The notes beneath the pieces are model-generated. The model saw only the letters and a program-made list of their open reading frames with translations. It did not search any database and had not been told where the DNA came from. The position numbers and the translations under genes were made by a program. From positions 62,001-126,000 of the forward strand of contig NC_134681.1 in the NCBI RefSeq assembly GCF_024713945.1: a stretch of 64,000 nt of DNA, written 5' to 3'. This stretch comes from Dermatophagoides farinae (taxonomy: Eukaryota > Arthropoda > Arachnida > Sarcoptiformes > Pyroglyphidae). Below are positions 3,868 through 64,000 of the stretch, one piece after another; positions within the stretch are counted from its first letter, which is position 1; each line of letters starts with the position of its first letter.

Positions 3868-3873
3868 AATAAA
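3868..3873 (+). other. Candidate poly(A) signal of the SLC10 gene
   Basis: AATAAA 213 bp after the stop codon. It is the first canonical hexamer I see downstream of the gene. Confidence 0.4.
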
Positions 3874-21222: not shown

Positions 21223-24200
21223 ATGTCAAGACGAAGTTTTTCTCCGGCTACAGCCGATAATCGAATAATGGCTACTAATACAATTGGCCGTCGTTCTGGA
21301 TCATCATCACCATCACATTCTATTCATCATACAACATCAATAAATATGGCTACTAATCATTATCATTATCATCAACAACAACAACAACAACAATCACGAC
21401 AACAAGGAATACGAACAGCAACAACAACAACCCGAACACCATCACCTTCATCAAGACATTCACCAGCACCATCATCATCGACAACAACAACAACTACTAC
21501 ATTATCGGCTATTCAACAAACGCCATCATGTAATTTCCGTTATGTAGGATGCTATTTGCTTATAATTATTAGCGATGGTTGTGATCAATTACGGCAACAA
21601 TCATGGTTAAGACATCAAACATTATTATCATCATCTAATGATTTATCATCAATTCTTTTACAACAAAAATCCGAATTGGAAGAATTTAATCGTCGATGGA
21701 CAAGTGGTTTTGTTGCTAAAGTTATACAACAAATTCGTAAAGGTTAGTTTGTCCTTTAGAATAATGATGATTTGTTTTTGTTTTTTTTCATTCTTTCTTG
21801 TTGTCAGTAGTAATGATAGGATTATGGTTGAAAAAAAAATTTCCTGTATATATATGATAATTATGGTTATTGGGAAAAAGAGAGAGAGAGAAAAAAAAAC
21901 GATACATTAGTGATATACACACACAAACACATCGTAATTCAAGTTATGTAGGTGTTTATTTTCTACATCATCATCTTTGATGACAGTAGTAAATATAAAA
22001 ATACACATACATTTATTTTCCTGTTAATGAAATCGAATGTCTATTATAAACCATTAATGTGTCTATCATGTTGTACGATTGTATATAATATTTACAGGAT
22101 TGCAGTCAGAATTTTTTTTTTTTTTTTTTTTGGATTGTCGCATTGATCCAGTACGCATGAATTTTTACCAGTATGTATTGTGCCCCTTTTTTTCCCATTA
22201 AGCATTCGAAATCCCGGTCCATCGACCGACATATCAAAATATCAATGTAATGAATGGAAGAAAAAAAAAACAGGAAGCTATTAATACCATGAAGAAAAAG
22301 TGTGAAAAAAATCGATCGCACAAAGAATGAATCAATAATATTTGAAAATAGCAATTCGTATTCGTATTCGGAAATTTGATATTTTTATATTAAATGAAAC
22401 CAAGAAATCGATCAATTTCTTTTCTTCTTTCACTCCAAAAAAATCAATCAAAAATTCATAATTGTCAATTCCATTTATTTAAATAGGTTTAACTATTTGG
22501 CAATCAACTACCGGTGTCCGTGATGAAAATGAATTAAAAGAATTGCAATCATTTCTTGATAATTTGGATGATCAACAACTGAGAAACGAATCGAACGCAG
22601 ATGGCAACGGTAAAAATAATGATAAAAAAAAGATTATTATCTGGAAAATGTTTTAAATGACAACAAAAAAATTTTTTTTTTGTAATTTATTTTCAATCAA
22701 CTATATTAGGTCAAATATTATTACAATATGCTCAAAAATCATTAGCCGTAGAAGTATTATGCAATCCATCGCTATTAACATTAAGTCAATGTTTACAGAA
22801 TGTATTACGTTCACCAACTGGTCAGGTACAAATTATCTATGCTGGAGCAACATTCTCCGAAACAGGATCATGGTTATTGGCTGATGGTACATTTTCAGCA
22901 TATAATTTCTATGAATTAATTGAAGAAGTGGACACTAATTATAAACGATCGAATCAAAATGGATCGAATAAAATTTATCATGATATATCCAATGCTGACA
23001 ATGATAATGGTAATGATCCATGTAATGGACATCGATCAATTGCTGAACATCTTAGTTCACATGATGTGGTTGTTTATTTACATACCGAACCAGCTGGTGA
23101 ATGGGCTATATTACGTGATATATTTTCACGACATCATATCGACACACATTCGATGACAACATCGATAACTTCATCATTAATTCTCAATGATCTTCATCAT
23201 CGAGCTACAGCCACTACTAATACTAGATCGGCTACAACTTCAAGCAATCGATATAATTCGAAACGTCCATCTAGTATTGTTTCTACATCGAAATTAGTAC
23301 CGAATATAACCAGTGGCCAAATTGATAATGTTCGACGTTTTCTTTTTCATTTTGCATTGAATCCTGAACAACAGGATATGAGCCCATTAGATACGTTACC
23401 CGATAAAGGTGCCCAAAGTTTGCTCAACTATTTGGGTGATCGACTTGCTTGGCATTTTGAATGGCTAATGCAGCCGCAAGAACGTGGCGGTGCTGGTCTT
23501 GGAAATTCATTGGCTTCAGTAATTTGTACACAGGATCCAATCGATACAGTTGGATTTGTACGGCTTCAACAGCCGACCATGTATGTATTTCCTAGTGGAC
23601 AAGGCGATTGTGCTTTATTGTCATTGGACAGTGGTTTTACGATGCTTCTTGATGCTGGCTATATGCCAGCACCTCGAACAATATGGCCTTTTATTAAACA
23701 TTTGCAACGTCTTGATTCTATTGTGGTGAGTGTCAATGATTTATGATTGCTGATGAAATAAATTTTTAAAAATATTTAAATCATATTATACAGGTAACAC
23801 ATTTGGGAGAAGATAATTTTTTCGGTTTACTAAGTTTATTGACATTGAAATCAATTCGCCAACATTGTCATCCAAATGTTTCGTTTGGTCAATGTCCAAG
23901 AATTGGCTACCTCTTCTGTAATGATCATCTTTCAGGGCCACAATTAAGTCCAACATCATTATCATCGGAATCGTCGATTGATCAAACTAGCAGTGGTATA
24001 CGAAACGAACCGATCGTTCTGGATGATCATCGTATATCATTAAATGAACTCAATCGACAGCTCTTTCAAACACTAAATGATCTAAAAATTCATCCATTAG
24101 CTTGTATACGAAACATTGATTCATTGAATAAGGAAACCAAAAAAGAATCGGTTTCATCTAATCGTGATACTAAGTCAGTTCCACTTCCGCCTACACCAAT

Positions 24201-27200
24201 AACTTTGTATCATAAAGTAGGCGTAGGCACATTATATATGTATGTATTAAATCCAACGTTGGATCGAATTTTGGCCAATACGATTAGTAATATTGGTGGT
24301 GGTCGTACCACTGTTCGAAGTTCAAGTGGACGTTCAACACCAACAAAACAACAACAAGAATTAATGGAATCAGAACAGCAAAACATTCCAGAAGCTGATC
24401 AACAATCAATCTGTAGTCTATTAATTTGGCGACCACATAATCCAGCCAAACGTATTGTTCGTATTCTATTTCCTGGCAACTGTACTCAAGCTCAAATTCT
24501 TGAAGGTTTTCAATCATTAATGATTATATCGAAATTTGATCAAACTGTTTCTGAATCAACAACAAATGGATCAAGTCGTTTATCAAGACGTTTCATGCCA
24601 ACACGTAAACAGATGAATACATCGAATGCCATCCCAACATCATTATTAAACGAACGTCCGGAATGTAAATCAAATCTTACTGAACTACTTGAATTAGATA
24701 TGTTATTACATCAACGTACACCATGTACTGGTGAACAATTGGAACAAAATTTCAAAGTTCGTTATGAAAAAACTATACCTACAATTGTATCTACAAGTTC
24801 TTTACATCAATTTGGCCGATCATTATCGGTAGCACCAAATTTATTACGTTCACGTCAACAGAAAACTAGTGCAACTGGTCGTGCAACAACAACAACAACA
24901 AGCAAAACTAGACAAATGAATAGTAGACGTTCAGAAACACCAAGTAGATATAGCCGATTCCGATCAGTATCACCGCCGACGATTCATCAATCAAGAATAA
25001 TCAATACGGAATCGACAAATATTCGTCGTCAACAGCCAATTACAACGACAGCATTATCCAGAACAACTACCAGACAACACCAACAACCAACAATTGATCA
25101 TTCAATTGTAAATCGACAAACTATGACAACAGTTCAACGTCATACAAGTGGTCATCAAGTATCATCGACTCATCCGAATACACAAGAAAATCGTTTAATA
25201 GGTAAACCACCATTACAATCAGCACCGCCACGAACGAATCAAATTACATCGACAACGAAATTACAACCAGTTCCGCCCAAAACCAAACAAAAACCTAAAC
25301 GCATCACGACAACAATGGCTACAAGCGGTAACATAGATTATATGAATAATACAAATAGACAAATTGGATCTAGTTCGAATCGAATGATTGACCAAAAGAT
25401 TTCATCTGAAGAACCTGTACCAAGACCAGTTGTACGTCGAAAATTAATTGGAGACCAACAACAATCGATATCTCAACAACAAGTGAGCAATGAGACATTG
25501 GAAGAAAAGACTACAAAAGAGATGGAAAACGTTGAACGACCAATTCAATTACCGGCTTCATCCGAAGCATTGAGTGAAGAAACAAGTATCCGATCATCAA
25601 CGGATGAAGAAGTCCGTAAGATAACCAAACGAATGGAACAGCAACAAATGAAAACTGAAGCAGTTATGCGTGCAGCTGCTGTTGAACTAGCTAAAAATGA
25701 ACACCAACATCAACGAGATTTAATTTCAACTATGATTACTGATCAACAACAGGTTATACAAAAAACCAGTGTTGATTATGATGATGATGAAACTTCAGTA
25801 ACTGCAGCAACAACAACAAATGCTGGTCAAGAAATAATTGATTATGAAACTGATCATGATCAATTAGATAGTCTAACATCAAACGATGTTGATAATGAAC
25901 ATTTTATCGAACTTTTACAAGGTTCAACAATTAAAGATTCTCATTCAATGGAATTGATTGATCAGAAAGTGGTTGATAAAGGGCAAGAAATTGACTTACA
26001 ATCAGAAACATTGTCCAATAAAGTAGAACAAATTGTTGACAAATCAAATGAAATTGTTGAACAAGAAACAAAAATGACAATGGCTACAAAACAATCGAAA
26101 ATGATTGAAGATGAAAGTCAAGATTCAGAATCTTCTACAGAAAAAATTGAACAAGAAATTCAAACTGAAACAGATAAATCAACAGATCATGAACATTCAT
26201 TAGAATCAGAAATGAATAAATCTGATGTAAAACTTGAAGAAAAACATGAATCACAATTAAGAAAGGAAGAGAATGAAGAAGTCAAAGATCAGAATAATAA
26301 TGTGACGGAAGGTGAAATGGTGGAGGAAAAAATAATGGATGTGAATGTGATCAAAAAGAAACCTGTTGAACAAGTGCCTGAATCTGGAACGGAACCAAAG
26401 TGTACAGCTACTGAAACTGTGATAATCACAAAAACTGATGAAAAATTAACAAATTTTACTGACCAAGCTTTCAACGAAGAAAAACCTGGCCAGAAAGTTA
26501 TTGAACAAGAAATTATTGAAAAAGTTAGCGAAGCGAAATCTGATAAAGATGAAAAATTGAATATTCCAGATATAATTGAAGCAAAAAAAGAATCGAATTC
26601 AATAGATCAAAAAGCTGAAACATTAATTGATCAATTGGAATCAAAATCAACTTGTGATGAAGTTAATGATAAATCAAAAGTGCCTGAATTAACAAAATCA
26701 CAAATAGAAACAGTAATCGAAAGTAGTGAGCAACAAGTGAGTAAAGCGCCATCTGCCGAGCAAGCTGAGAAAGAATCAGAATCATCTGAAACGGCGGATA
26801 AAGAATCTTTGAAAGTTGAATCGACTGAAACGGAACCATTGAAAGCTGAAACAACAGAACTAGATTCATCTAAATTTGAATCAGCCGAAACTGAACCAGC
26901 GAAAGTTGATGTGGTGCAAACGAAAGAAGAACCACCAAAAGTTGAACCAGACATACCAGAACAAGCCGCAGTTAAGTCAACAGAAACAAAACAAACAAAA
27001 GATGAACCAGCGAAAATTGAATTAAAAGAAACAGAACCAATAAAAGCAGAAACAACGGAAATAGTGAAAACGAAAGCTGAAACAAACGAAAATGAAGAAG
27101 AAAAAAATGAAACGCTAAAAATCAAAACTAATGAAACGGTTTCAATAGAAAAAGAACCAGTCAAAGTCGAATCAGCCCAACTAGAGCTGATTAAAGCCGA

Positions 27201-30200
27201 AACAAATATAAAAAAACCAATCAAAGTTGATACTGTGAAAGTTGAAATTAATAAAACGGCTTTCATGGAAAAAGAACAAGCAACAGCTGAATTAACCGAA
27301 ACTGAACCAACAAAAGTCGAAACTAAAGAAGAGGTGCAAACGAAAGAAGAACCACCAAAAGTTGAACCAACCGAACCAGAAAAAGTAAAAGATGAACCAA
27401 CCGAAATTGAATCAATAAAAGAAGATTTTACAAAAATTAAACCAAGAGAATCGGAGTTAACAAAACCTGAAACAAGTGAAAATGAATCAAGAAAAGTTGA
27501 TACAACGAAAGAAGAAATTCATGAAGAGAAATTCAAGGATACAGAATCTGCAAAAGTTGAACCAACTGAACCAGAAAAAGTGAATGATGAACCAGCGAAA
27601 ATCGAAACCACTGAAATATTGCCAACAAAAGTAGAACCATCAAAAAATCAATCAATCGAAACGGAAAAGCCAATAGTTGAAAAAACAGAAATGGAAATAA
27701 CAAAAGTCGAACTAACAGAGACAACAGCTGTTGAACTGTCGAAAGCTGAAACAACCGAAAATGAACAATCAACAGTTAAACCAACAGACATAGAGACAAT
27801 AAAAGACAAATCAGCTGAAGTCATAAATAAAGAAATGGTGGCAACTATAGAATTGTCAAAAGTTGAACCAATCGAATCGGACCGAACAACAGTAGAATCT
27901 ACAGAAACAAAACAAGCACATGTTGAACCGACGGAAGTAGAAAATCTAGAAATCGAATTGACAAAACTTGAAACAACAACATTAGAGCAAGAAAAAATTG
28001 AATCAGCAAAAGTGGGAACTCCAGAATCGGTGTCAGCAGAAGAAAAACCACATAGAATTGAAACAGAAGCTTTGGTGACTGAACCAACAAAAGTCGAGAT
28101 TATTGAAACAGTTTCAACAAAGAAAGAATCACCAAAAACTGAATCAACAGAAACGAAACCAGATAAAAGTGAACAAGCAATTGCCGAAACTAATGAAAAA
28201 ATTTTAACAAATGAAGAATCACCTAAAGTTGAATCAATCAAACCAGAAAAAGCATTTGAACTAAAAGAAGAGAAAATTCCAGAAACTGAAACAGTAAAAG
28301 TAGTGCAAGAAGAAACAGAATCGATAAAAGTTGAAATTCAAGAAACAGAATCGACAAAATTTGAACAAGAGGTAACGAAAGCTGAAACAACAGAGAAAGA
28401 ATCCGAAAAAGATAAACCAGCAGAGGATGAAACTGATGAAACGATTTCAACAAATAAAGAATCAATCAAACCAGAGGAGACAGTTGAACCAGCAAAGGTA
28501 GATATTCAAGAAATTGAATCGAAGAAATTAGAATCAATCGAAAAAGAGTCAATGAAAGTTGAAATTCAAGAAACAGAAACGACAAAATTTGAACAAGAGG
28601 TAACGAAAGCTGAAACAACAGAGAAAGAATCTGAAAAAGATAAACCAGCTGAAGATGAACCAGTTGAACCAATCAAAAAGGAAGAAGCTAAAGTTGAACA
28701 AACAGAATCAGTTCCAATAAAAGTTAAAACCCAAAAAACGGAACCAGCAATAATTGAATCAACAGAAACGGAACCAGAAAAAAGTGAACAAGCAGAGATC
28801 GAAACTAATGTAATGGAGTCAACGCAAAAAGAAGAATCGAAAAAAGTTGAATCAATCAAACCAGAGGAGATAGTTGGACCAGCAAAGGCTGACATTCAAG
28901 AAATTGAATCAGCAAAGAAAGAATCAATCGAAAATGAGTCAATGAAAGTTGAAACTGTTGAAACAATCTCAATGAAAGAGGAATCTTCGAAAATTGAACC
29001 GAAAGAAACGGAACCAGAAAAAGGCGAACTAGCAAAAGTTGAACCTACTGAAACAAGAGTTGGATCAACAAACGAAGAATCTTCAAAAGTTGAACCAACA
29101 TCAACTGAACCCACAGAAGTCGAATCGACAAAAGGCAAAATACAAGAAACTGAACCAGCAATAATTGAATCAACAGAAACTGAACCAGCAAAACTAGAAC
29201 AAGCAGAACCAGTTCCAATAAAAGTTGAAACTCAAAAAACAGAACCAGCAGTAATTAAATCAACAGAAACGAAACCAGATAAAAGTGAACAAGCCAAGGT
29301 CGAAACTGATGTAATGGAGTCAACGAAGAAAGAAGAATCGCCAAAAGTTGAATCAATCAAACCAGAGGAGATAGTTGAACCAGCAAAGGCAGAAATTAAA
29401 GAAATTGAATCAATCGAAAAAGAATCAACAAAAAATGAAACAGCGAAAGTTGAAACTACTGAAACGCTGTCAACGCAACAAGAATCAAAAACAGTTGAAC
29501 AAATAGAACAAGCGAAAGTTGAACATGCAAAAACGGAACCGAACAGAGTCGAAACTCAAGAAACAAAATTGGCAAAAGTCGAACCAGAAAAAACAAAACC
29601 AATTGAAAATGAATCAACAAAAGCAGAATCTACGGTAATTGAACCAACAAAATCAGAGTTAACGGAAGCTCAATCAACGAAAAAGGAACCAGAAAAAGAT
29701 GAACCAGTAAAAGTCGAAACAGCTAAAACGGAATCAACAAAAGAAGAATCACAAAAAGTTGAATCAGTAAAACCAGAGCAGCCAGTCGAAATAACGAAAG
29801 ATAAAATTCAAGAAACAATGCAAACGAAAGAGGAACTCCCTAAAGTTGAACAAAATGAAACTGAATCAGTGAAAGATGAACCAGTGGAAGTTAAATCTAC
29901 AGAAACGGAACCAACGGAGGTTGAAACAAAAGAAATGGAACCAATCAAAAATGAAGCATCAGAAACAGAATTTACAAAAGTCGAAACAGCTGAAACGGAA
30001 TCAACAAAAGAAGAATCACAAAAAGTTGAATCAGTCAAACCAGAGCAGGCAGTCGAACTAACAAAAAATGAAATTCTAGAATCTGAAATAATAAAAGTTG
30101 AACAAAAAGAAACGGAATTGATGAAAGTTGGAATTCAAGAAACAGAACCGGTGATATTTGAACCAGCAACAGTTAAACAAAAAGAAATGGAACCAGAGAT

Positions 30201-33200
30201 AACGAAAGTTGAACCAATCAAAACGGAATCAGCAAAAGTTGAGCCGACCAAAATGGAAGAAGCAAAAGTTGAACCAACCGAAATGAAACCAGCAACAGAT
30301 CAATCACCAGAAGTAGAATGTACAAAAATTGAACCAACAGATTCAGAACTAATAAAAGTTGAAACAATGGAACCAGAAAAAATTCAAACTACTGAAATGG
30401 TATCAACTATAGAAGAATCGTCAACTGAAATGAAAATAACGAAAGATGAATCAACAATCGCAGAACCTACGAAAATAGTATCAACAGGATCAGAGTTAAC
30501 AAAAGTCGAATCAACAGAAAAAGAAAAAGAAAAAGATGAACCGGTAGAAGTTAAAACTCGAGAAATGGAACCAGAAAAAAATGAAACAACCGTAACAGAG
30601 CCAGTACAAGACGAACCAGCAAAAATTGATACAAAAGATAGTGAACCAACAAAAGTAAAACCAATGGAAACGGAACTCTCGCAAAATGAGCTTACCGAAA
30701 CAAAGCCAGTGAAATTAGAACCAATCAAACCAGAGACTGCAAAAGTTGAGCTTAACGAAACAATGCCGGCTGAAAAAGAACAACCAAAAGATGAAAATGA
30801 AGATACTAAAAAGATAAAGACTGAACCAGAAAAAGTTGAACCGATCGAAATCAAATTTAAAGAAAACGAAATTCAAGAAATGGACTCAATAAAAATCAAA
30901 TCAATAAAAACAGAATCATTAAATGATGAACAATCTATATCGAAACCAATTGAAGTTGAAACAGAGGAAATCAAACCAGATAAATTACAAGAACATCAAC
31001 CGACAATAGTAAAAAACGTAGAAACCGAACCATTGAATTTGGAATCATCAGAAATTCAACCTGAAAAAGCTGAGCCAATGATAGTTAAAACAACAGAAAA
31101 GGAACCAGAAAAAGATGCACTAACTGAAACAAAACAAGATAATGTTAAAAAAATAGAATCAAATCAAATAAAAGTAGAAAATCAAAAAACTGAACCATCA
31201 AAAGTTGAACGAAATGAAAGTGAATCAATGAAAGATGAACCAGCCAACGTTGAAAATAAAGAAATTGAAACGGTGAAATCTGATGCAACCGAAATGATGC
31301 CAGAAAAAGACGAATCAATAGAAACAGAATCTTCAAAAATTAAACGAAAAGAATCAGAGATAATAAAAGTTGATACAACGGAAAAGGAACCAGTAAAAGT
31401 CAAAACTACTGAAACGAAGTCAACAATAGAAGAACCTCCAAAAGTTGAAGCAACATCAGCTGAACCTACAGAACCGACAAAAGGCAAAATTCAAGAAACA
31501 GAACCAGCAAAACTTGAACAAACAGAATTAGTTCCAATAAAAGTTGAAAATCAAAAAACAGAACCAACAGTAATTGAATCAACAGAAACGAAATCAGATG
31601 AAAGTAAACAAGCCAAGGTCGAAACAGCTGAAACGGAATCAACAAAAGAAGAATCAATCAACAAAGTCGAAACTCAAGAAACAGAATTGGGAAAAGTCGA
31701 ACCAGAAAAAATAAAACCAACTGAAAATGAATCAACAGAATCAGAATCTACAATAATTGAGCCAACAGAATCAGAGTTAACGAAAACTCAAACAACGAAA
31801 AAGGATCCAGAAAAAGATGAACCAGTAAAAGTCGAAACAGCTGAAGCGGAGTCAACAAAAGAAGAATCACAAAAAGTTGAATCAGTAAAACCAGAGGAGA
31901 CAGTTGAACCAGCAAAGGCAGAAATTCAAGAAACAGTGCCAACGAAAGAAAAACTCCCTAAAGTTGAACAAAATGAAACAGAATCAGTGAAAGATGAACC
32001 AGAGGAAGTTAAATCCACAGAACCGGAACCAACGGCGGTTAAAACAAAAGAAATGGAATCGATAAAAAATGAAGCATCAGAAACAGAATTAACAAAAGTC
32101 GAAATTACAGAACCAGAGTTAACGAAAGCTGAACCAATTAAAACGGAAGAAGCAAAAGATGAACCAACGAAAGTTGAAGCTCCTGAAATCGAATCAGCAA
32201 AAGTTGAACATGCAGAAATGGAACCGAACCGATTTGAAACTCAAGAAACAAAATCATCAGAAGCAGTATCTACACAAATCATGCCAACCGAATCGGAGTT
32301 GACTAACGCTGAAACAACAGAAAAAGAACCAGAAAAAGATGAACCAGTAAAAGTTGGAACTAGTGAATCAATTTCAACGCAATCACCAAAAGTTGAATCA
32401 TTCAAACCAGAGAAGACGGTTGAACCAGCAGAAGCAAAAATTGAAGAAACTGTAACAACAAATATAGAATCAATCGGAAAAGAGTCAACAAAAGATGAAC
32501 CAGTAAAAGTTGGAACTACTGAGTCAATGTTAACGCAAGAAGAATCAAAAACAGTTGAACCAATAGAACCTGCTAAAGTTGAGCATGCAGAAACGGAACC
32601 GAACAAAGTCGAAATTCAAGAAACAGAATCGAAAAAATTTGAACCAGTAAAAGTGGAACCAGAAAAAACAAAGCCAATTGAAAATGAATCAATAGAAACA
32701 GAATCTACAATAATTGAACCAACAGAATCAGAGTTAACGGAAGCTCAAACAACAAATAAGGAACCAGTAAAAGTCGAAACAGCTGAAACGGAATCAACAA
32801 AAGAATCACAAAATGTTGAGCTAATAGAACCAACAAAAGTTGAACAGGTAGAAATGAAACCGAACCGCTTCGAAATTGAAGAAACAGAACAATCAAAAAA
32901 TGAATCAGCAAAAGCAGTATCTACACAAATCATACCAACCGAATCAGAGTTGACTAACGTTGAAACAACAAAAAAGGTATCAGAAAAAGATGAACCAGTA
33001 AAAGTAGAAACTTCTGAAACGATTTCAACAAAAGAAGAATCACCAAAAAGTGAATCGATAGAATCAGAGAAAACAGTTGAACCAACAAAAGTTGAACATG
33101 TAGAAACGGAACTTGTAACAACAAAGAAAGAACCTGAAAAAGATAAACCAACAATAGTCCAAACTCAAGAAATTGAACCATCAAAAGTTAAATCAAATCA

Positions 33201-36200
33201 AACGGAATCAGCGAAAGTTGAACCAATCAAAATGGAAGAAGCAAAAGTTGAATCAACAGAAACGGAGCCGACAAAGGTTGAAACGAAAGAAATGGAACCA
33301 ACTAAAAATGAAGCATCAGAAGCAAAAATCGAATCTACAGAAGCAGAATTAACGAAGGCTGAACCAATCAAAACGGAACCAGCAAAAGTAGAGCCAATTG
33401 AATTGATACCAGCAGAATTCGAACAAATTGCAGTAAAATTGGCAAACACCACCGAGATAGATTTAATCGAAACAGAATCAGCAAAAGTCGAATTAATTGA
33501 ATCAATTCGAGTAGAAGATGAACCGACCAAAATTGAGTCGTCGGAAATATTGCTCAAAACTGAATCTTCTACATTGAAACCAGCTGAAATTCTTGATGAA
33601 AAAGAAAACATTGTCCAAATTTTAGATGATCAAGTGCCTGGACAAACCGTAAATGATAATACAGATGAATTTTCAGCTAATGAAATTCATGTAATGAAAA
33701 CACATTCACCAGTTTTATTATCCGAGCCGACACATATCAAAACTGGTTATCACAGTGATAAAATTAGTGATAAATCTGATATGATTGAGCATATCACTCA
33801 AATTGACAATAGTGAGAAGAATGACGATAATTTGTCAGAAACCATTGATAATGAACATGCTGTGATCAATCATATAGATGATGAAATTGAACATATAAAT
33901 GTGATAAGAGATGAAAATGAAGAAAAAACACTGAAAAAGCCAACAATAAATCAATCTTTTTTACATCCGGGTGCCAAATCCACAGAAGATGAAATCGATA
34001 ATGATATCAACGAGAACATCGCTACGGCACAATTTGCATCAACCGGACTACTCACTGTAAATAAATCATTTTTACATCCTAATCCTATGGATAGTCTTGA
34101 AAATCATGAGTTATTATTAAAATCTTCGGAACAGATTGATACAAAAGAAATGAAACAAATTCCAGAAAATGAACCGATGAAAGTCAAACCATCCGAATTG
34201 AATTCAACAAAAGTTGAACCATCCAAAACAGAACCAGAAAAAATTATGCCAATAGAAACTGAGAAAGTTGAACCAGAAAAAATTAAATCGGCAGAACTGG
34301 AACCAGAAAAGGGCGAACTAGCAAAAGTTAAAACAACTGAAACAAGAGATGAATCAACAAACGAAAAAACTTCAAAAGTTGAACCAACATCAACTGAACC
34401 CACAGAAGTCGAACCGACAAAAAGCAAAATTCAAGAAACAGAACCAACTATAATTGAATCAACTAAAACTGGAAATGCAAATGTTGTACAAACAGAATCA
34501 GTTCCAATAAAAGTTGAAACCCAAGAAACGGAACCATCAATAATTGAATCAACAGAAACAAAACCAGATAAAAGTGAACAAGCCAAGGTCGACACTAATG
34601 TAATGGAGTCAACGAAGAAAGAGGAATCGCCAAAAGTTGAATCAATCAAACCAGAGGAGATAGTTGAACCAGCAAAGGCAGAAATTCAAGAAATTGAATC
34701 AACGAAGATAGAATCAATCGAAAAAGAGTCAATGAAAGTTGAAATTCAAGAAACAGAATCGACAAAATTTGAACAAGAGGTAACGAAAGCTGAAACAACA
34801 GAGAAAGAATCTGAAAAAGATAAACCAGCTGAAGATGAACCAGTTGAACCAATCAAAAAGGAAGAAGCTAAAGTTGAACATACAGAATCAGTTCCAATAA
34901 AAGTTGAAACCCATAAAACGGAACCAGCAATAATTGAATCAACAGAAACGGAACCAGAAAAAAGTGAACAAGCAGAAGTCGAAACTAATGTAATGGAGTC
35001 AACGAAAAAAGAATTACCAAAAGTTGAATCAATCAAACCAGAGGCGATAGTTGAACCAGCAGAAGCAGAAATTCAAGAAATTGAATCAGCAAAGATAGAA
35101 TCAATCAAAAATGAGTCAATGAAAGTTGAAACTGTTGAAACAATCTCAATGAAAGAGGAATCTTCGAAAATTGAATCAATCAAACCAGAGAAGACAGTTG
35201 AACCAATAGAACCAGCAAAAATTGATCATGCAGAAACGGAACCGAACAAAGTCGAAACTCAAAAAATAGAATCGGAAAAATTTGAACCAGCAAAAGCCGA
35301 ACCAGAAAAAACAAAGCCAAGTGAAAATGAACCATCAGAAGCAGAATCTACAATTATTGAGCAAACAGAATCAGAGTTAACGAAAGCTCAAACAACGAAA
35401 AAGGAACCTGAAAAAGATGAACCATTAAAAGTCGAAACAGCTGAAACTATTTCAACGGAATTAGATGTTGAATCAACCTCTCCAGCAACAGTAACATTAG
35501 CAAAAGTAGAAATTCAAGAAACTCAATCAGCAAAGAAAGAATCAATAGAAAAAGAATCAGCAAAAGATGAAACAGAAAAGGTTGAAATTACTGAAACACT
35601 GTTAACACAAGAAGAACCTACAATAGTTAAACTAACATCAACTGAACCTACAGAAGTCGAGCCGACAAAAAGCAAAATTCAAGAAACAGAACCAGCAAAA
35701 GTTGAATCAACCGAAACTAAATCAGATAAAAGTGAACAAGCAATGGTTGAAACTAATGAAACGATTTTAACAAATGAAGAATCAACAAAAGATGAATCAA
35801 CCAAACCAGAACTGGTGGAACCAGAAAAAATTGAACCAACGAAGATAGAATCAATCGAAAAAGAGTCAACAAAAGTTAAAACTACTGAAACAATGCCAAC
35901 AAAAGAGGAATCTTCGAAAATTGATCCGAATGAAACGGAGCCAACTGTAGTTGATACAACAAAAACAGACCCAATTGAAAACAAATTAGCGAAAAACATA
36001 ACTCAAGAAACTGAAATAGCAAAAGTAGAACAAACAGAATCTGGTCCAACTAAAGTCGAAACTCAAGAGACGGAACCAGAAAAGATTGAACCCGCTGGGC
36101 AAGAACCTGCAAAAATTGTATCAACAAAACCAGAAACATCGAAAGTTGAACCAATCGAAACCGAACCGAAAATAGAATCAATTGAAAAAGAGTTAACAAA

Positions 36201-39200
36201 AGAAGAACCAAAAGAATCCGAAAGAATAAAAGACGATTCAGCAAAAGTTGCACCAACAGAAACTGTAGAAGCAAAAGATGAATCAATAGAAGCAGAATCT
36301 ACGAAAATCGAATCAACAGAATCAGAAGACAAATCAGCCAATGTTGAATTAACAGCAACAGAATCAACAAAAGTGGAAATAACAGAAATAGATTCAGTCC
36401 AAAACGAACCAGCAAAAGGTAAAAATCAAGAAACAAATATTGAAATAACTGAAATGGGATCAGAAAAAGCCGAATCAATCGAGCCGAAACCAGAAAAAGT
36501 TGAACAGAAGAAAGATGAAACATCATTAAACGAGCCAGAAATAAATGAACCAACAAAAGTCGAACGAATAGAATCCGAGCAAGCAACAGTTGGACTAACA
36601 GAAACAGAACCGGTAATAGTTGAATCGCTTGAAATTCAAGAATTAAAACCATTTAACACTGAAACAACAAAAGCAGTTTTGGTAGAAGCGAAGTCAGTGA
36701 TAAACAAAATTCCAGAGATGGAAATTGAACCAAGTCAAACGAAACAAGCAAAAATGGATTTAACCAAGACTGTGACAGTGGAAAACGGAACTCCAAAAAC
36801 TGAACCAGTGAACGTTGAAACAACCGAAACTGAAGCAGCTAAAGTTGAATACATTGAAACGGTTTCAACAGAGGAAGATTCAACGAAAATTGAATCAATA
36901 AAACCAGAGACAGTTAAACAAGCTATAGTTGAAACACAAGAAACCGGAAAAGCGAATATTGAATCAATCGAAAAAGAGCCAGCAAAAGTTGGAACAAACG
37001 AAAATGAAGAAGAAAAAGATGAAACGCTAAAAATCGAAACTAATAAAACGGTTTCGATAGAAAAAGAACCAGGCGAAGCCGAATCAGCCCATCTAGAGCC
37101 GATAAAAGCCGAAACAAATATAAAAGAACCAATCAAAGTTGATACTGCGAAAGTTGAAAGTAATGAAACGGCTTTAATGCAAAAAGAACAAGCAACAGGT
37201 GAATCAACCGAAACTGAACCAGCAAAAGTTGAAACTAAAGAAGCAGTGCAAACAAAAGAAGAACCACCAAAAGTTGAACCAGACATACCAGAACAAGCCG
37301 CAGTTAAGTCAACAGAAACGAAACAAGCAAAAAATGAACCAGCGAAAATTGAATTAAAAGAAACAGAACCAATAAAAGCAAAAACAGCGGAACTAGAGCC
37401 AGCAAAAGCTGTAACAAATGAAAATGAAGAAGAAAAAGATGAAACGCTAAAAATCGAAACTAATGAAATGGTTTCGATAGAGAAAGAACGAGGCAAAATC
37501 GAATCAGCCCATCTAGAGCCGATAAAAGCCGAAACAAATATAAAAGAACCAATCAAAGTTGATACTGCGAAAGTTGAAAGTAATGAAACGGCTTTTATGG
37601 AAAAAGAACAAGCAACAGTTGAATCAAAAGAAACAAAACAAGCAAAAGATGAACCAGCGAAAATTGAATCAAAAGAAACAGAATCAACAAAAGCTGAAAC
37701 AAACAAAAATGAAGAAGAAAAAAATGAAACGCTGAAAATCGAAACTAATGAAACGATTTTCAAATCGACAGAAGCGGAATCCATAAAATCTGAACCAAAA
37801 GCAAATGAACCAGAAAAACATATACCAATCGAAAAATCAAAAATCGAAAATCAAGGAATTCAACCAATAGAAATAGAGCAAGTGATAGTTGAAGCTGCTG
37901 AAATTAAATCCACAGAGACAGAAGAACCACCAAAAATTGAAATTCGAGATATGGAAACAACAAAAGAGGAAACTAAAGAAATGATGCCAACGAAAGAAGA
38001 ACATTCGAAAGTTGAAATAAGTGAAATAGATCTAGCAAAAGTTGTGATTCACAAAACAGTGCTAGAAACAGTGCTAGAGAATGAACCACCAAAAGTTGAA
38101 CCAATCGAAACTCAAGAAACAGAATCTGTGAATTTTGAACCAACCGCGACAAAATCAGAAAAAGTCGAACAGACAAAAACTGAAAAAACCGAAAAAGAAC
38201 CGTCAACATTTGAACCACCAGAAAATGAATCAGCGAAAGTCAAAACTCAACATGCTGAATTGGCAAAAGATGAAGTCCAAATTAAAGAAACTGGTCCAAC
38301 AAAAGAAGAGCTATCAAAAGTTGAAGAACCAAGTGAAACGAATCAAACAAAAGTTTTAATTCAAGAAACAATGCAAGAGAAAAGCATGCCAAAAGATAAA
38401 ACAATCGATTCAGATCCAGCAACAATTGAATCAATAGAAACGAAACAAGCAAACGTTCAAAACACGGAACAAGAACCAACAAAAGTTGAAATTACTAAAA
38501 CAGAATCAATAACAGTTAAATCAAGTAAATCGATGAAAGCTGAAACAGCAGAATCAGTGTTACCAAAAGTTGAAGCAACAGATAAACTTCCAGAAAAAGA
38601 TGAATCAGAAAAATTCGAGACAGTTGAATCAGTGCCAGCAACAGTTGGGTCAACAGAAACGAAACCTGTAAAAGTCGACGAGATGAAAATCGAAATTAAT
38701 GAAATTGAACCGGTAAAAATTGTATCAACAGAAACAGAGACAGATGAAAAGAAACCAACGAAAGGCGAAGCTCAAGAAACTGAACCAGCGAAAGTCGAAA
38801 CTAAAGAAATTGAACAAACAAAAGTTGAATCATCAGAAAAAAAATCATCGAAAGTTGATCCGAAAGAAATGGAAACAGAAAAAATCGAACGAAAAGAAAC
38901 GGAGCAAGAATCATTCAATGTTGATTCCGCAATAGTATTAGCTCAAATTGATGAAAAAATAACGTCAAAAAAAGAAGAAATAACAGTTTGGACTGAAACG
39001 AATACCAATGGAAAAGAATTAATTTCACAATCAGTCTCCAATGAAATAATTGGAACGAAATCAACTGCTGAACATGCACCAGATGCTTTAGAAATTTTAA
39101 CAGAAACTCAATTGTCTAATATTCCACAAGACAAAAATGTAACCACAAAATCTGATAATGTTGCTGAAGCAATCACCAAATCTTCTGATGTAATTGATGA

Positions 39201-41825
39201 TACAGCACTTACAATGAATCAGCAACAAAATAATGCACAAAAGAATGTTTTGGCTGAAGATGAATTAGAGACTAATGTCACGACAGGATCGAAATCTGGC
39301 ATCGAAACAATGATACCAATTCAGAAAATTGATACCAGCCAATCGGAACAAGAAACATTGGATTCAATTGAAGATGCCGTACCAATAACGATGACAGAAA
39401 CTGATAAAGCAGCCAATACAATACAATGGATATTACAGCAAGCACAATTAGTTACCGATGATGATAATATTCCGATGTCCGAAGGTGAACAAGTTATTGT
39501 TATAGAAAGTGATCCAATTCAAACAACTTCATTCATTTCTGGTTCAATGTCAATGCTATCCGAATCGAAAGAATTGTTTGAACAAATGCAATCCACAATG
39601 GGTGTTGCCGATATTAGCAAAATTTCGACCGATGTTCATACACAAGCCCGTGAACTACTAGATAGTACAGTAAAACCTGCCATACAACAAAAAATGGACC
39701 AAATTCTGACCCAAACATCTGCACAATCAATAGATAAACAAGGAGAGGCAAAAACTAACCAAACTTCTAAGGTAATTGAAAACCTTCAACAGCAATGTCA
39801 TAATGTTCTTGGACAAACGTATCAGCTTCTAGAAGATATGGATCAAAAAATATCACAAGTAACCGATCGCCATCAACAATCATTAGCGGCAGCTAATTCC
39901 GATATTTTGATTCATCCAACAACAACATCTCTAGCTGGTATGTAATTAATATAATTTCGTTTCGTTTAGTAATGAATTTTGTTGTTTTTTTTTGTTCCAA
40001 TTAGCTGATACAACTACAAGTTTTGCTGATTCAATTTCGATATCAAGTATTGATAAAGAATCGATTGGTATGCCACAATTAGAGAAAAATTATACAGAAT
40101 TTTCTGATTCAAAAAACTTTGGAAAAACAATGGAATCGAAAATGAAAATGACCGATGTTCCATCTGCTGCTGTTGCTGAAAAAGTTTCATCATTAGATAC
40201 ATTAAATGATCAATGGAATGTATTTGAAAAACATTCCGATGATATCAATACCGGGGAAAGTAATCGAATGGAACGTACACAAATGGTTATCAATCGATTT
40301 GATTCAAAATCTTTGACTGATACATCAGATGAGACAAAACAATCAACAATAAAACAAGAATGGACAACAACAACTACTTTGCCAAAAATTTATGAATCAC
40401 ATATACGTGTGAATCTTGGTCAAACTGATAGTAATAATAATCAGATTGATGATGAAGAAATTGAACGAAAAGAAATGGAAAAATTTTCAAAAATCTCCAT
40501 AGTACCATTGCAAACACCAGCTACAAGTTCAACAATAACTACAACATCAATGGTCAATATTGATTCGTCAATGCCTGGTTTAATTGATCATGTTCCAGGT
40601 AAGATTATTGTTAATAATTATAAAGAATCATGAAAATTTTATATTTTTTTTAATTACAGAATTACAAACACGAATAATTGAAACAAGCGAAATGTTTGTA
40701 CAACATAATGATGACGATTCAATTGATTCTCGAATAAAAACATACGAAACAAGTGGACCGAATTTAGTGATGGAAACAATTATGACTCCAAATGTGATCA
40801 GTTCTATTGATAGTACAACAAATACAATGACAAGCAGTGATATAAATGAAAAATTACCGCCTACCACTACTGAAATTAATCAAAAAATAATAACCAAACG
40901 AGAATTGAAAGAACAAATTAGACCAATGAAATTTGAAACAATCGAAAATGTAATGTTAACAGAACCATATGAACAAAGTCCACCACCTGAATTACTTTCA
41001 ACAAGACAAATACAAATGATGACAGAACCAATGAGTGATGATATAAATATTACCGAAACAATTATGGAAGCTACAACAACATCAACATCAGCAGCTGCGG
41101 ACACTACTCATACAAGTAGTAGTAATAATGATAATAATCGTGTAATTGTCACTGAACAACAATTACCCGAAGTTGTATACACAATGACCAAAACGACAAC
41201 TAAAAAACGTTTCGATGTTGATCGAGATTGGGATCCACCAATGGCATTACCAACACCGCAGCCACCATCACCAATTAGTTCATCATCACAATATTATCAA
41301 AGCAGTAGTAGTCGAACTACGAATATAGGACGGAATCGATCTTCTACAGAACGTTCAACATCCACCGCCAGTAATAAATCAACAAATACAACGGTGAATC
41401 CAGTTTATGTTGAATTAGCCTATGTACCTGGTCATGGAAAACGTGGCTATTGTGATGAGGATTTTTTCCGTAAAATTCGTGCACGTTATTATGTATTTTC
41501 CGGTGTAACACCTTCACGACAAGTTCTTGATGCATTACTTAATGGTGTAAAAACATGGCTAAAAATTGATGATCAAAATCGTTCTGAAACAAAAGTAACA
41601 ATTGTACCAACATATGAATCGGAAGCAATGGCACGTTGGTATGCCGATCATAAAGAACAATTAGATTCACTTGGAATCGAAATTGTTTCAGCAGCTAATC
41701 GTTGTTGGCTATCATTAGATCAAATTGATCTACAATCAAACAACAATACAACAAATCAATCACAACAAGCATCGAATAATCTATCATCGGATGATATTTG
41801 TTTTGCATATAAAATTGAATTTTAA
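21223..41825 (+). CDS. futsch: Giant MAP1/Futsch-like microtubule-associated protein, six exons
   Basis: Exons 21223-21742, 22487-22609, 22710-23725, 23794-39937, 40005-40598 and 40660-41825 all join in frame (19563 nt, about 6520 residues). After a Ser/Gln-rich leader, the N-terminal third carries the MAP1 heavy-chain signature: GSWLLADGTFSAYNFYELI, then FPSGQGDCALLSLDSGFTMLLDAG and LDSIVVTHLGEDNFFGL, a degenerate metallo-beta-lactamase-like fold. A basic Ser/Arg-rich segment follows, then from about residue 1540 to 5600 an acidic repeat of KVEPxETEP-type decapeptides, interrupted at about 3820-4000. The last 140 residues (NPVYVELAYVPGHGKRGYCD to CFAYKIEF) are the MAP1 light-chain domain. 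MAP1/Futsch binds axonal microtubules and is needed for axon and synapse growth in flies. The repeat exon is one 16.1 kb block. Introns are 67-100 bp, except 744 bp for the first. An upstream non-coding exon is likely but not seen. Confidence 0.93.
26750..38930 (+). repeat. Coding repeat array of the Futsch-like protein
   Basis: About 12 kb of GAA/AAA-rich codons encode a degenerate ten-residue unit of the form TKVEPxETEP, with variants such as AKVEPTETES. Besides the short unit, segments of 100-300 bp recur almost unchanged at distant places (for example near 28559 and 34739, and near 26929 and 37250). This shows growth by repeated internal duplication. The minus strand stays open in places only because Glu and Lys codons reverse-complement to Phe, Leu and Ser codons. 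Confidence 0.85.
33600..34140 (+). other. Non-repetitive island within the Futsch-like repeat array
   Basis: About 180 residues without the KVEP unit split the array into two halves. The island contains two copies of a short motif, INQSFLHPG and VNKSFLHPN, roughly 40 residues apart. It looks more constrained than the flanking repeat. Confidence 0.65.
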
Positions 41826-58900: not shown

Positions 58901-59059
58901 GTGTTCTTCTTTATGTTTGTGTACATAATAAACACAAACACACACAGACACACACACACATTTTTTTTGCTGTTGATTTGGTTTATATATTTGACCATCA
59001 CTATATATATATATATGTCATATATAATACTGAAGTACTATATAAAGTTGCGACTATGG

Positions 59060-59790
59060 ACAGGCTTGTTGAGGTCAAAACGGAAGTCTGCAATACTTCC
59101 ACCGATATGTTTGGCAACAACCACACTCACAACACGGTTTAATAAAAATGAAAAGTTTATTTAATAACCTAACAAACGATAATAAGCAAAAATGTACAAG
59201 AAATATAAATGGAAACTTGATGATGATAATAATTGGATAAATGATTGATTTTGGTAATATGATGATCGGCCTAACAACAGATAGATTGATACCCAAAACA
59301 CGTGGTTTTGGTCGATGATGAAACAGTCGTCCAGGAAAGCTTCTAGAGACCGTGATCTGTGTTGGCTATTGGTGGCTGTCGATATTGACTGCTGAGTTTG
59401 CCTGATTTCAAACTTCAAACCAATATGATGATAGTGATGATCATAATCGTTGATCGTTAATATGATATGATTGTTAATGTTATTGTGGCCAAAATGTCCA
59501 GCTATTTATATTGATTGATGGCCAATGGTCCGTGCTTTATCCCGCCAAAATGGTTGCTGTGGTTGTTATCCGCCCACTGCTCTTAACCTGCGTGATCAGC
59601 TTTTGATTTGTCAACTTTGCAGGACCATGCGCTGTGACCAACCTGAGTTGCCATGCTTGTTGCTAGGTCCAGGCAGAAAGGTCAGCATGGTTACCACGTG
59701 GTGACATTATCTGGGCTCATGGACAATTTGAGCAATGATAATTTAGAGGTTTATACTTCCTCTTATTTGATACATAACATACACACGGTA
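59060..59790. other. Less AT-rich unclassified segment left of the foldback element
   Basis: From about 59060 the sequence loses poly-T runs and microsatellites and becomes clearly GC-richer, most of all in 59510-59720. It reads like part of an older interspersed element. Possible hints of an LTR are TGTTGAGG at 59067-59074 (CCTCAACA on minus) and an ATTAAATAAA on the minus strand near 59157-59166. I could not find a second terminus, a target duplication or a primer-binding site, and no ORF looks like a known protein. Left unclassified. Confidence 0.35.
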
Positions 59791-60140
59791 CCAGTAAGTA
59801 ATTGGGCACTTTCGAAAAAAGCATTACGGCCTATGGGAGAGAGGGTTTTTTCAAAGCTTCTAAAACCATGTTTTTTGTCGGAATCAAGCGAAAATATTTT
59901 ACCAGTGCATAGTGAAAGAGTTGCTCTTTGAACAGTCTGAGTTTCAACTTCCGGCTACCATTTTCGAGAGTAGATGTGGGGTGTCAAAGTTTATGTAGGG
60001 GAAATTTTCGCCCTCTCGACTGTACTGCCATCTTGCAGATTAATAAATCCCTGAGATTAGCAAAAATGTATAGACACCAATTTTCGAATGTCGTGCAATC
60101 ATACTTGGTTTATTTTGTGCCATTTTTTGTTGTAAAGTAA
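59791..60140 (+). repeat. Left arm, outer non-repetitive inverted-repeat segment
   Basis: Inverted partner of 63650-64000. Identity is complete over the 252 bp that can be compared outside the 64 bp indel; inside it I see one substitution (60130 G against the partner). An ORF at 59928-60140 appears in both arms only because the arms are copies. Confidence 0.75.
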
Positions 60141-61115
60141 GAATTCAAAATTCAAAATCGAGAAAATGACCAATATCCAACCTAACACGACCAGATCAGA
60201 ATGGAGAAAATGGCCAATATCCAACCTAACACGACCAGATCAGAATCGAGAAAATGGCAAATTTCAAAACTAACACGACCAGATCAGAATCGAGAAAATG
60301 GCAAATTCCAACCTAACACGACCAGATCAGAATGGAGAAAATGGCCAATATCCAACCTAACACGACCAGTTCAGAATCGAGAAAATGACCAATATCCAAC
60401 CTAACACGACCAGTTCAGAATTCAAAATTCAAAATCGAGAAAATGGCAAATTTCAAAACTAACACGACCAGATCAGAATCGAGAAAATGGCCAATTTCAA
60501 AACTAACACGACCAGTTCAGAATTCAAAATTCAAAATCGAGAAAAGACCAAATCCAACCTAACACGACCAGATCAGAATGGAGAAAATGGCCAATATCCA
60601 ACCTAACACGACCAGTTCAGAATCGAGAAAATGACCAATATCCAACCTAACACGACCAGTTCAGAATTCAAAATTCAAAATCGAGAAAATGGCAAATTTC
60701 AAAACTAACACGACCAGATCAGAATCGAGAAAATGGCCAATTTCAAAACTAACACGACCAGTTCAGAATTCAAAATTCAAAATCGAGAAAAGACCAAATC
60801 CAACCTAACACGACCAGATCAGAATGGAGAAAATGGCCAATATCCAACCTAACACGACCAGTTCAGAATCGAGAAAATGACCAATATCCAACCTAACACG
60901 ACCAGTTCAGAATTCAAAATTCAAAATCGAGAAAATGGCAAATTTCAAAACTAACACGACCAGATCAGAATCGAGAAAATGGCCAATTTCAAAACTAACA
61001 CGACCAGTTCAGAATTCAAAATTCAAAATCGAGAAAAGACCAAATCCAACCTAACACGACCAGATCAGAATCGAGAAAATGGCAAATTTCAAAACTAAAA
61101 CGACCAGTTCAGAAT
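60141..61115 (+). repeat. Left arm, inner satellite with 246 bp higher-order period
   Basis: Tandem units of roughly 40-60 bp share the core AACACGACCAG, then (A/T)TCAGAAT, then CGAGAAAATGGC or GGAGAAAATGGCC, then an AA(T)TTCAAAACT or ATATCCAACCT tail. Some units carry an extra TTCAAAATTCAAAA insert. The order of unit variants repeats as a block of 246 bp: the block start TTCAGAATTCAAAATTC occurs at 60414, 60660 and 60906. Confidence 0.88.
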
Positions 61116-61250
61116 TGGTTGGCGATGCTTTATTGATTACTTTTCCAATGATTGTAGTGGTTTCTATTTGCTCATCGCTGTCTACAGTGATATTATGGTT
61201 TTCTTTTGTTACTTCATCTTGATCGTTTAGGACTGCTGCTGGACATTTGT
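61116..61250 (-). other. Unique 135 bp segment embedded in the left arm
   Basis: It interrupts the satellite; the units on its right (61251-61302) are in the opposite orientation to those on its left. On the minus strand it is open throughout and reads like protein linker sequence (CPAAVLNDQDEVTKENHN, then DEQIETTTIIGKVINKAS), unlike the satellite around it. It could be captured host DNA. Source gene not recognised. Confidence 0.4.
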
Positions 61251-61525
61251 CATTTTCTCGATTTTGAATTTTGAATTCTGAACTGGTCAGAATCGAGAAA
61301 ATGATTTTGAATTTGATTTTAATGATCGACAATCATTAGAATCATCAATACAAAATTATTATCAATTTATAATTTTAAAATCAAGATACCAGAAAAGAAA
61401 AAAGAAGAGATTTAAAAAAATAAATAAGAATAAAAAAAAAATCTCTCTAGTATGTAATGATGATGATAAATAGAAAAATTAATCTTCCAACTGTCGATTC
61501 CATGAATTGATAACGATTAGATCCT

Positions 61526-61560
61526 CCAGTGCTGACGATTCCGGTAATTTGGACCACATC
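61526..61560. repeat. Tc1-like inverted-repeat terminus next to the transposase stop
   Basis: CAGTGCTGACGATTCCGG and then TAATTTGGACCAC resemble the ends of many Tc1-like elements (CAGTGCTG start and an ATTTGGAC core). It lies about 100 bp beyond the transposase stop codon, the usual distance. I found no matching inverted copy upstream of the transposase start (62712-62957). Confidence 0.45.
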
Positions 61561-61634
61561 ATCTGAAACCAACGGAAACAACGATTTTTTTGAATTCAAA
61601 TTTTCAAATTTTCATGATTTATATTTAACTAACC

Positions 61635-62711
61635 TCAGTACCTCGTTGATCCGCCACGTGCCTTCTTCAAAGCTCGAAATCGGCTTGGCACGCTATCAAT
61701 CAGCCGATCTATCAAACTCTGCGGCAATTCAGCCCATAACTTCACCAGGAGCTCGAATAAACCAGCAGAAGTCGACGGATGAAGCTTCGTTTGCTTCAAT
61801 CGGCGCTTCAACGAGTACCATAGGTGCTCGATCGGATTCATATCCGGACTCTGAGCGACCCATTCCAGTTTTTTTATATTGGATTTTTTGATAAAATCCT
61901 GTGATCGCTTCGACATATGGCATGGTGCCCCATCTTCCTGGAAAAGGTAGTTCCTTTTCGTTACTTTATTTCTTCTATTACGGAAGATGGGGAATAGCGT
62001 CGTTTCCAATGTATTAATATATTCTTCGCTATTCATGCTATTGGAGCAGAGTCTCAGCTCTGATCTCCCACCATGCCTATTTTCAAGGAATAATGATGAT
62101 TATTATTATTATTAAATCAGGTCGAAAAAATCTTACCATATAGCCCCCCAAACCATCACGCTGAAACCGTTGTGTTTCACAGTGGCTTGTAGCCTCTTGG
62201 TTTGGTAGGCTTGATTTTTCTTACGGTAAACGTAAGTTCGATAAGCGTCATTGAATTGCGAAAACCGGCACTCATCGGAGAAAATCACTTTTCTCCAATA
62301 GTCCGTGGGCATCTTAACCATCTTATTTGCCCATAGCCGTCGTTTGTTTTTGTTTTTTTTCGATAGCAGTGGCTTTCTTCGGGCAATTCTGGCCCCATAT
62401 TCCAACATCGGAATGTATTTCCGAACGGTGTTTGCGGAAACATCCATGTGGCTCGCCAATTCTTCGCTTACTGTGGCTGGAGTTCTTTCGATTTGACGAC
62501 CTAGTCGTCTCAGTGTCCGTTCTGACGGTCCAGGACGACCTGGTGGCTTGATCGCGTTTATTTGGTTATTTTGATGGTATGTTTTAATGATATGATGAAC
62601 GTTTGATTTGCTGGTGTTAATTTTTTTTGCTATGTTTCGATTGCTTAACCCGTCTTTATAATATTGTAGGACAATTCTGCGCAAAACTGTTTTTTCAATT
62701 TGTTTATTCAT
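61635..62711 (-). CDS. Tc1-like DD34E transposase, intact, with one 60 bp intron
   Basis: Exons 62711-62137 and 62076-61635 join to 1017 nt, 338 residues, the normal size for Tc1 transposases (about 340). The intron (62136-62077) has GT/AG ends and restores the family reading VMVWGAIWHGG across the junction. The N-terminal helix-turn-helix pair (SNRNIAKKINTSKSNVHHII) is followed by the GRPG hook at 58-61 (PPGRPGPSERT) and a second HTH. The catalytic triad is Asp146 (IFSDECRF), Asp240 (FQEDGAPCHM) and Glu275 (NPIEHLW), with 34 residues between the last two. The C-terminus KARGGSTRY is typical. No stop or frameshift, so the enzyme may be functional. It would bind the element's ends and cut and paste it into TA sites. 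It sits near the centre of the inverted arms. Confidence 0.92.
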
Positions 62712-62957
62712 GATTTTTTAATATCAAAATTGCAATGGATCAATCAATGAATAAACGATAGTAAATAATAATGATGATAATGGTAATGGATGAATAAATT
62801 AATCAAAGAAAAAGTTTTTAAAATGTTTAATCACGCTTAACAATATCAACACGACAACTAACATTCGATGGCTAAACCATCAAATTTTTCAAATAGAATG
62901 TTGAAAACAAATTTACCATTCAATTCGAAAATAGAATTACTAACCGAATTTCGAACA
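62712..62957. other. Spacer between transposase start and right-arm satellite
   Basis: AT-rich DNA with ATG/GAT-type simple sequence, presumably holding the transposase promoter. I see no Tc1-like terminus here that could pair with the one at 61526-61560. Confidence 0.5.
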
Positions 62958-63649
62958 GGTCGCGTTAGTTTTTCGATTGTGAATTTTGAATTCTAAACTG
63001 ATCGTGTTAGTTTGGACTTGTTATTTTCTGGATTTTGAATTTTGAATTGATTGTGTTAGGTTGGATATTGGTCATTTTCTCGATTCTGATCTGGTCGTGT
63101 TAGTTTTGAAATTTGCCATTTTCTCGATTCTGATCTGGTCGTGTTAGGTTGGATTTGGTGTTTTCTCGATTTTGAATTTTGAATTCTGAACTGGTCGTGT
63201 TAGTTTTGAAATTGGCCATTTTCTCGATTCTGATCTGGTCGTGTTAGTTTTGAAATTTGCCATTTTCTCGATTCTGATCTGGTCGTGTTAGTTTTGAAAT
63301 TTGCCATTTTCTCGATTCTGATCTGGTCGTGTTAGGTTGGATTTGATCTTTTCTCGATTTTGAATTTTGAATTCTGAACTGGTAGTGTTAGGTTGGATAT
63401 TGGTCATTTTCTCGATTCTGAACTGGTCGTGTTAGGTTGGATATTGGCCATTTTCTCCATTCTGATCTGGTCGTGTTAGGTTGGAATTTGCCATTTTCTC
63501 GATTCTGATCTGGTCGTGTTAGTTTTGAAATTTGCCATTTTCTCGATTCTGATCTGGTCGTGTTAGGTTGGATTTGATCTTTTCTCCATTCTGATCTGGT
63601 CGTGTTAGGTTGGATATTGGTCATTTTCTCGATTTTGAATTTTGAATTC
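62958..63649 (-). repeat. Right arm, inner satellite (inverted relative to left arm)
   Basis: The same units as at 60141-61115 but read on the minus strand (plus strand shows CTGATCTGGTCGTGTTAG and CCATTTTCTCGATT). The innermost copies (62958-63060) are the most diverged. The array is about 690 bp against about 975 bp in the left arm, so copy number differs between arms. Confidence 0.87.
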
Positions 63650-64000
63650 TTACTTTACAATAAAAAATGGCACAAAATAAACCATATTTTTTATTTATGT
63701 CTTAAAACAAGATTTAAAACAAATGCAAAATTGTCAAAATTGATGTTAAGTATGATTGCACGACATTCGAAAATTGGTGTCTATACATTTTTGCTAATCT
63801 CAGGGATTTATTAATCTGCAAGATGGCAGTACAGTCGAGAGGGCGAAAATTTCCCCTACATAAACTTTGACACCCCACATCTACTCTCGAAAATGGTAGC
63901 CGGAAGTTGAAACTCAGACTGTTCAAAGAGCAACTCTTTCACTATGCACTGGTAAAATATTTTCGCTTGATTCCGACAAAAAACATGGTTTTAGAAGCTT
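63650..64000 (-). repeat. Right arm, outer segment, cut by the window end
   Basis: Inverted copy of the left outer arm. It holds 64 extra bases (63685-63748) that the left arm lacks, located between ACCA and AGTATGATTGCA. The terminus lies outside the window. Confidence 0.8.

Follow-up and report, generated by a model that had tools for sequence, protein, structure and literature searches.

Foldback or long-arm relatives of the Tc1/mariner transposons are already known. Tc4 of Caenorhabditis elegans is related to Tc1/mariner and is reportedly called a fold-back element in the title of a paper, and Mcmar of Meloidogyne is described as a Tc1/mariner-like element with 355-bp arms made of direct repeats and palindromes. 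The available extracts on Tc4 and Mcmar mention no satellite common to another superfamily, unlike what is described below. Also described are miDNA4 of Xenopus, a Tc1/mariner miniature inverted-repeat transposable element (MITE) holding a tandem repeat (PMC12628747), and three foldback elements with tandem repeats in their arms, which are Galileo of Drosophila (P superfamily), Tetris of Drosophila virilis and Tm1 of root-knot nematodes. The authors of the last two place them in or near Mutator, with duplications of 8-10 bp for Tetris (PMC4079207) and 9 bp for Tm1 (PMC3169594). For Galileo, the literature reports long arms, chimeric copies, some of them with the core of another subfamily, and a proposal of exchange among copies (PMC3573991). 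Here, we describe E1, a Tc1-type foldback element of Dermatophagoides farinae that begins inside a stretch of 64,000 nucleotides (contig NC_134681.1, positions 62,001 to 126,000, or C5:62001-126000; hereafter the window), together with the satellite and the inner pieces that it has in common with hAT-ended elements elsewhere in the 62.4-Mb assembly (22 contigs). As fits a mite, one protein of this genome has the allergens Der p 2 and Der f 2 as its best matches among solved structures.

Tc1-ended and hAT-ended elements have both their satellite and their non-satellite cores in common. E1 is like Tetris and Tm1 in its tandem-repeat foldback arms, but these two are not assigned to Tc1/mariner by their authors. 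miDNA4 is described as a MITE with its satellite inside and not in inverted arms, and the description mentions no hAT partner (PMC12628747). The exchange proposed for Galileo is among subfamilies of one family, whereas here satellite and cores span Tc1-type and hAT-type elements. Our search of the literature by title gave no recognised report of Tc1 and hAT elements that share an inverted satellite together with its cores. Each superfamily is usually viewed as a lineage of its own, recognised by its transposase and its ends, and here elements with two kinds of ends and target duplications share folding arms and inner pieces. A Tc1 foldback by itself would be a modest finding; a pool extending across superfamilies is a broader one.

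E1 is a single element of 4,291 bp bordered by TA at both ends. It starts with CACACGGTACCAG at window position 59782 and finishes at 64072, 72 bp past the window, and its architecture is of the foldback type, with long inverted arms that hold tandem repeats and enclose a middle domain. The first-pass annotation of the window had proposed a foldback element driven by a Tc1 (DD34E) transposase, and the inverted arms, the satellite and the intact transposase are indeed all present, so that its reading is supported, and the recurrence of paired arms with TA elsewhere exceeds what chance would give. Its left end, put at 59791, is displaced to the true terminus at 59782, and extending the contig past 64000, as it advised, located the right terminus. 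The outer arms (59782-60106 against 63748-64072) are identical, as it had noted, over 325 bp and not the 252 that it counted. This perfect identity belongs to the outer part and not to whole arms, since about 66 bp more separate outer arm from satellite on the right, without counterpart on the left, and the left array has 20 satellite units by key-word count, against 13 in the right one. E1 is a complete and probably autonomous Tc1-type (DD34E) foldback transposon with the following features:

59780..59781, + strand: left TA target dinucleotide, with its right counterpart past the window end at 64073-64074
59782..60106, + strand: left outer arm, a terminal inverted repeat of 325 bp that matches the right arm at every base
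60151..61115, + strand: left inner arm, 44-bp satellite array, in part a 246-bp higher-order repeat
61116..61248, - strand: core D piece, an open reading stretch present also in E2 and five other satellite loci
61249..61288, - strand: lone satellite unit in inverted orientation, adjoining core D
61635..62711, - strand: gene of the Tc1-type DD34E transposase (338 amino acids), made up of exon 1 (62711-62137), an intron (62136-62077) and exon 2 (62076-61635, stop included)
62983..63639, - strand: right inner arm, an array of the 44-bp satellite in the opposite orientation to the left one
63748..64000, - strand: right outer arm, running on to 64072 (C5:126072), beyond the window

The arm-core-arm order, which the annotation had advised looking for at other sites, is repeated in four further copies. 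E2 (C5:4208180-4212130; 3,951 bp) is a second full-length copy with a transposase between its arms, while E3, E4 and E5 (1,940, 1,492 and 1,716 bp) have both arms without transposase. TA is present on both sides of all five copies with both termini intact (E1-E5). A further locus, L037, keeps both arms, of which the right one is decayed; the truncated loci L035 and L038 have a single arm adjoining transposase pieces, and L039 and L040 a single arm. Thus, the transposase adjoins these arms at four loci (E1, E2, L035, L038), and the case in which arms never flank it, considered beforehand as fatal to a single element, does not apply.

A genome search with the right array of E1, in which 40 of 78 candidates were scored, yielded 121 matches that we group into about 36 loci, many of which are opposed pairs of arrays. 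Beyond the Tc1 set, ten of the satellite loci fetched have CAG-type termini, for which we coined the end-family names hAT-1 to hAT-4:

hAT-1, ends CAGTGATTCTCAACC: L052, L059, L060, L064
hAT-2, ends CAGGGGTCGGCAACC: L050, L065, L066 and one end of L051
hAT-3, ends CAGGGCCGAGCCGTG: L053
hAT-4, ends CAGTGTTTCCCAACC: L067
satellite loci with other or unresolved ends: L054, L058, L062, L063

The short termini starting with CAG in the four families match the published hAT consensus. Perfect 8-bp target duplications were found at 8 of the 9 CAG-ended loci tested (L065 fails; L051 was outside the test), and these separate duplications indicate that the hAT-ended copies have moved. Mean monomer identity between Tc1-ended and hAT-ended arrays was 0.83-0.87 (150 random pairs per comparison), against 0.49 after shuffling. 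Also, one monomer of a hAT-3-borne array and one of a hAT-4-borne array each have a letter-identical counterpart in the Tc1-borne arrays of E3-E5. By coordinates, satellite matches adjoin 11 of the 13 full-length left ends of hAT-1 and 7 of the 8 of hAT-2.

The space between opposed arrays is occupied by one of the cores A, B, C or D. Core A is present at 21 loci (24 rows, ends assigned by coordinates), with a Tc1 arm at five of them (E3, E5, L037, L039, L040), hAT-1 ends at ten and hAT-2 ends at three; the other three are without assigned ends, one having a partial hAT-2 end. Core B was found in hAT-2 (L051, L066), in hAT-3 (L053) and in L039 (matched by eye), and core C in L051 and the hAT-4 locus L067. 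Core D is carried by E1, E2 and five further loci (among them L062 and L063, which were read). It is open over the whole 49-residue query in four loci and over residues 4-49 in one, the E1 form having a short deletion; no host source gene for it was found, all six match rows being satellite loci. Short open stretches are present in the other cores as well.

Arm and core histories disagree. Core A differences were counted pairwise at 10 of the 21 loci. Between E3 and E5, the arms show 2 differences over 335 sites (99.4% identical) and the cores 11 over 234 (95.3%; Fisher p 0.0025), and the reverse holds between E5 and L037, with 29/331 in the arms and 3/234 in the cores (Fisher p 7e-5). The core of the Tc1-ended L037 differs from that of the hAT-2 locus L050 at 4 of 230 sites (98.3% identical). 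Similarly, hAT-2 left ends that are 99-100% alike enclose core A at some loci and core B at others. Mixtures of parts also occur within single stretches: in L039 (C3:6739001-6748000), cores B and A, satellite and one Tc1 arm share a stretch with a reading frame (2232-3140) that encodes a hAT dimerisation domain and lies about 600 bp from the satellite and the two cores. A right-end piece of hAT-1 and a left-end piece of hAT-2 stand together at twelve loci, including L054 (C1:1098501-1100500) and L058; these two, which were read, also contain satellite, a small part of core D and a piece of Tc1 arm that has decayed. No outer ends were located for these loci.

We favour the reading, to which we give a probability of roughly 55%, that the Tc1 foldback belongs to a shared pool in which inverted satellites let unrelated transposons exchange their cores. 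It is an even bet, in our estimation, that the inverted satellite has been a shared recombination adapter between the unrelated superfamilies Tc1 and hAT, ends and cores mixing and a transposase gene or fragment being able to change its type of carrier. By analogy with its family, the E1 transposase would cut at the CACACGGTACCAG termini and insert at TA, and the inverted arrays would provide the homology. After a foldback has been broken, in or beside its inverted arrays, or excised, repair could copy another foldback that shares nothing but the satellite; cores would be replaced and arms homogenised, and each element would retain the ends recognised by the transposase of its own superfamily. 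E1 itself looks like a mosaic, with a core D piece and one inverted satellite unit beside its transposase. If such exchange is real, foldback arms would be a route for parts between unrelated transposons, which would bear on the rise of foldback structure in several superfamilies. The many copies with interchangeable cores make this genome a test case for the idea.

Several observations weigh against exchange. The comparison of E3 with L037 is not significant (arms 27/331, cores 9/234, p 0.053), and the Fisher tests assume independent sites. The hAT label is based on termini and 8-bp duplications rather than on a matching transposase: the hAT dimerisation domain PF05699 has five matches in the genome, one of them in L039 near the satellite and none tied to these ends. 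No exchange was caught in progress. Within hAT-1, core A is the same in all four loci read, as if it had been fixed in one ancestor and then spread. Nested insertion has also taken place here: one junction of L053 carries a piece like a Tc1 terminus, L054 and L058 contain decayed pieces of Tc1 arm, the array of L037 encloses a stretch that resembles a hAT end, and a second hAT-like terminus lies within the right end of L050 and of L065.

Some of these pieces are what nested insertion followed by hitch-hiking would leave. Tc1 foldbacks would first have landed at TA sites within hAT elements, deletion would have removed their outer arms, and hAT transposases would then have spread them, with no need of exchange through the satellite. 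The piece in the hAT-3 locus L053, ACAGTACCAGTAAATAA, stands immediately before the satellite, the decayed arm pieces of L054 and L058 adjoin the satellite, and hAT-1 has spread with its module, as the 11 of 13 satellite-bordered left ends show. We take this history seriously as an alternative, at least where the first transfer is concerned, and nested insertion may have brought the satellite to hAT ends in the first place. We rate it as less likely than exchange, however: the junctions read in hAT-1, hAT-2 and hAT-4 show no Tc1 arm, and it leaves unexplained both the near-identical hAT-2 ends with core A or core B and the conflict between arms and cores in Tc1 copies.

Far less probable is that the opposed satellite block with its core is an independent transposable unit that inserts into other transposons. 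The block is found in many contexts, as such a unit would be, but fixed termini predict a constant junction, and the phase of the satellite at the junction varies between families: 11 or 17 for Tc1, 7 and 24 for hAT-1, 24 and 22 for hAT-2, 40 and 35 for hAT-3, 14 and 8 for hAT-4, and 16 and 11 for L062 (the phase 0 on the right of E3 is the start of a local alignment inside the array). Since the satellite begins at differing points of its unit, the block seems to have no fixed termini of its own, for which reason we prefer exchange by repair.

It is just as improbable that E1 is an ordinary Tc1 foldback and that each transposon family captured the satellite separately from a genomic array. For miDNA4, it has been proposed that a Tc1/mariner MITE took up a tandem repeat that already existed (PMC12628747). 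Nevertheless, the non-satellite cores A, B and C are common to several end families and the opposed arrangement recurs, and the capture of a direct-repeat array would yield neither. An assembly artefact, which the annotation had considered and to which long identical arms are prone, can practically be set aside because the five copies occupy different sites, differ in flanks and in length, and are each bordered by TA at both ends.

Conversion between the two arms of a copy, which had also been suggested beforehand, receives some support from a small sample. The outer 325 bp are identical between the two arms within E1, within E3 and within E5. A base unique to E5 among the arms aligned is present in both of its arms, and both arms of E1 and the left arm of E2 have a 1-bp deletion that the right arm of E2 lacks. 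Private changes shared by both arms are the pattern expected of arm-to-arm conversion. Two observations speak against conversion: in E4, one base occurs in the right arm alone, and in the older L037 the two arms disagree at 28 of 277 sites.

The transposase of E1 is intact, with 338 amino acids once a 60-bp intron (GTAAGA...AAATAG) is removed, the splicing being predicted from the nucleotide sequence. Its catalytic residues are D146, D240 and E275, the 34 residues between the last two giving the DD34E signature, and the Pfam domains DDE_3 and HTH_Tnp_Tc3_2 both score above cut-off. Residues 109-338 match PDB 5cr4, the catalytic domain of SB100X, with E 7.8e-40, as the sole PDB match. Thus, E1 is alike to the DD34E elements of the Sleeping Beauty/Tc1 type in this catalytic part, in the DD34E spacing, in both domains and in its TA flanks, and unlike Sleeping Beauty in its arms, which are much longer and bear satellite. 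A search of the 325-bp arm for an inner direct repeat of the terminus, as in Sleeping Beauty, gave nothing above the level of shuffled sequence (351 of 500 shuffles scored as high), although a weakly conserved repeat could escape such a search.

The ratio of nonsynonymous to synonymous substitution rates (dN/dS) was computed for the E1 transposase against nine other loci. It was 0.08 for L035 (dS 0.10), and 0.05, 0.06 and 0.08 for L048, L055 and L038, values that are rough because dS is above 1.6. Higher values (0.13 for L056, 0.32 for L057, 0.36 for L049 and 0.42 for L032, which is E2) come from loci with stops, in the first three cases, or with few changes, in the last, where the transposase match is divided between frames; L061 was not computable. 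The low values suggest that the transposase lineage was selected for function in the past. The 3-4.5 kb around each of the transposase fragments L048, L049, L055, L056, L057 and L061 showed no convincing TA-flanked inverted repeat and no match to the E1 arm except one of 18 bp in L061.

No empty site was found in the search made for the window copy. The loci L043-L045 were considered as such and rejected, because a flank repeat ends in them at the same point with varying length. This repeat, at window positions 59006-59781, lies beside the left end of E1; elsewhere it is 776, 203 and 63 bp long with the same endpoint, and it resembles a 5'-truncated non-LTR (non-long terminal repeat) element. 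The half copy in L035 (C8:3202001-3210000) lies between duplicated host DNA (about 3342-3834 and about 5825-6071; identity 90% over 170 bp and 98% over 96 bp), as if the duplication were a relic of aberrant gap repair. Two other inverted-repeat elements with arms of about 415-500 bp, in L041 (about 1856-4127) and L042 (about 2683-5083), each contain a piece like the Tc1 arm, and the arms of L042 start in a tandem motif, GGTCGAACACAAAA. Apart from E1, the window includes an open reading frame of 5,391 amino acids (23770-39945) that contains numerous short, degenerate repeats in which T, E, K, P and V are abundant.

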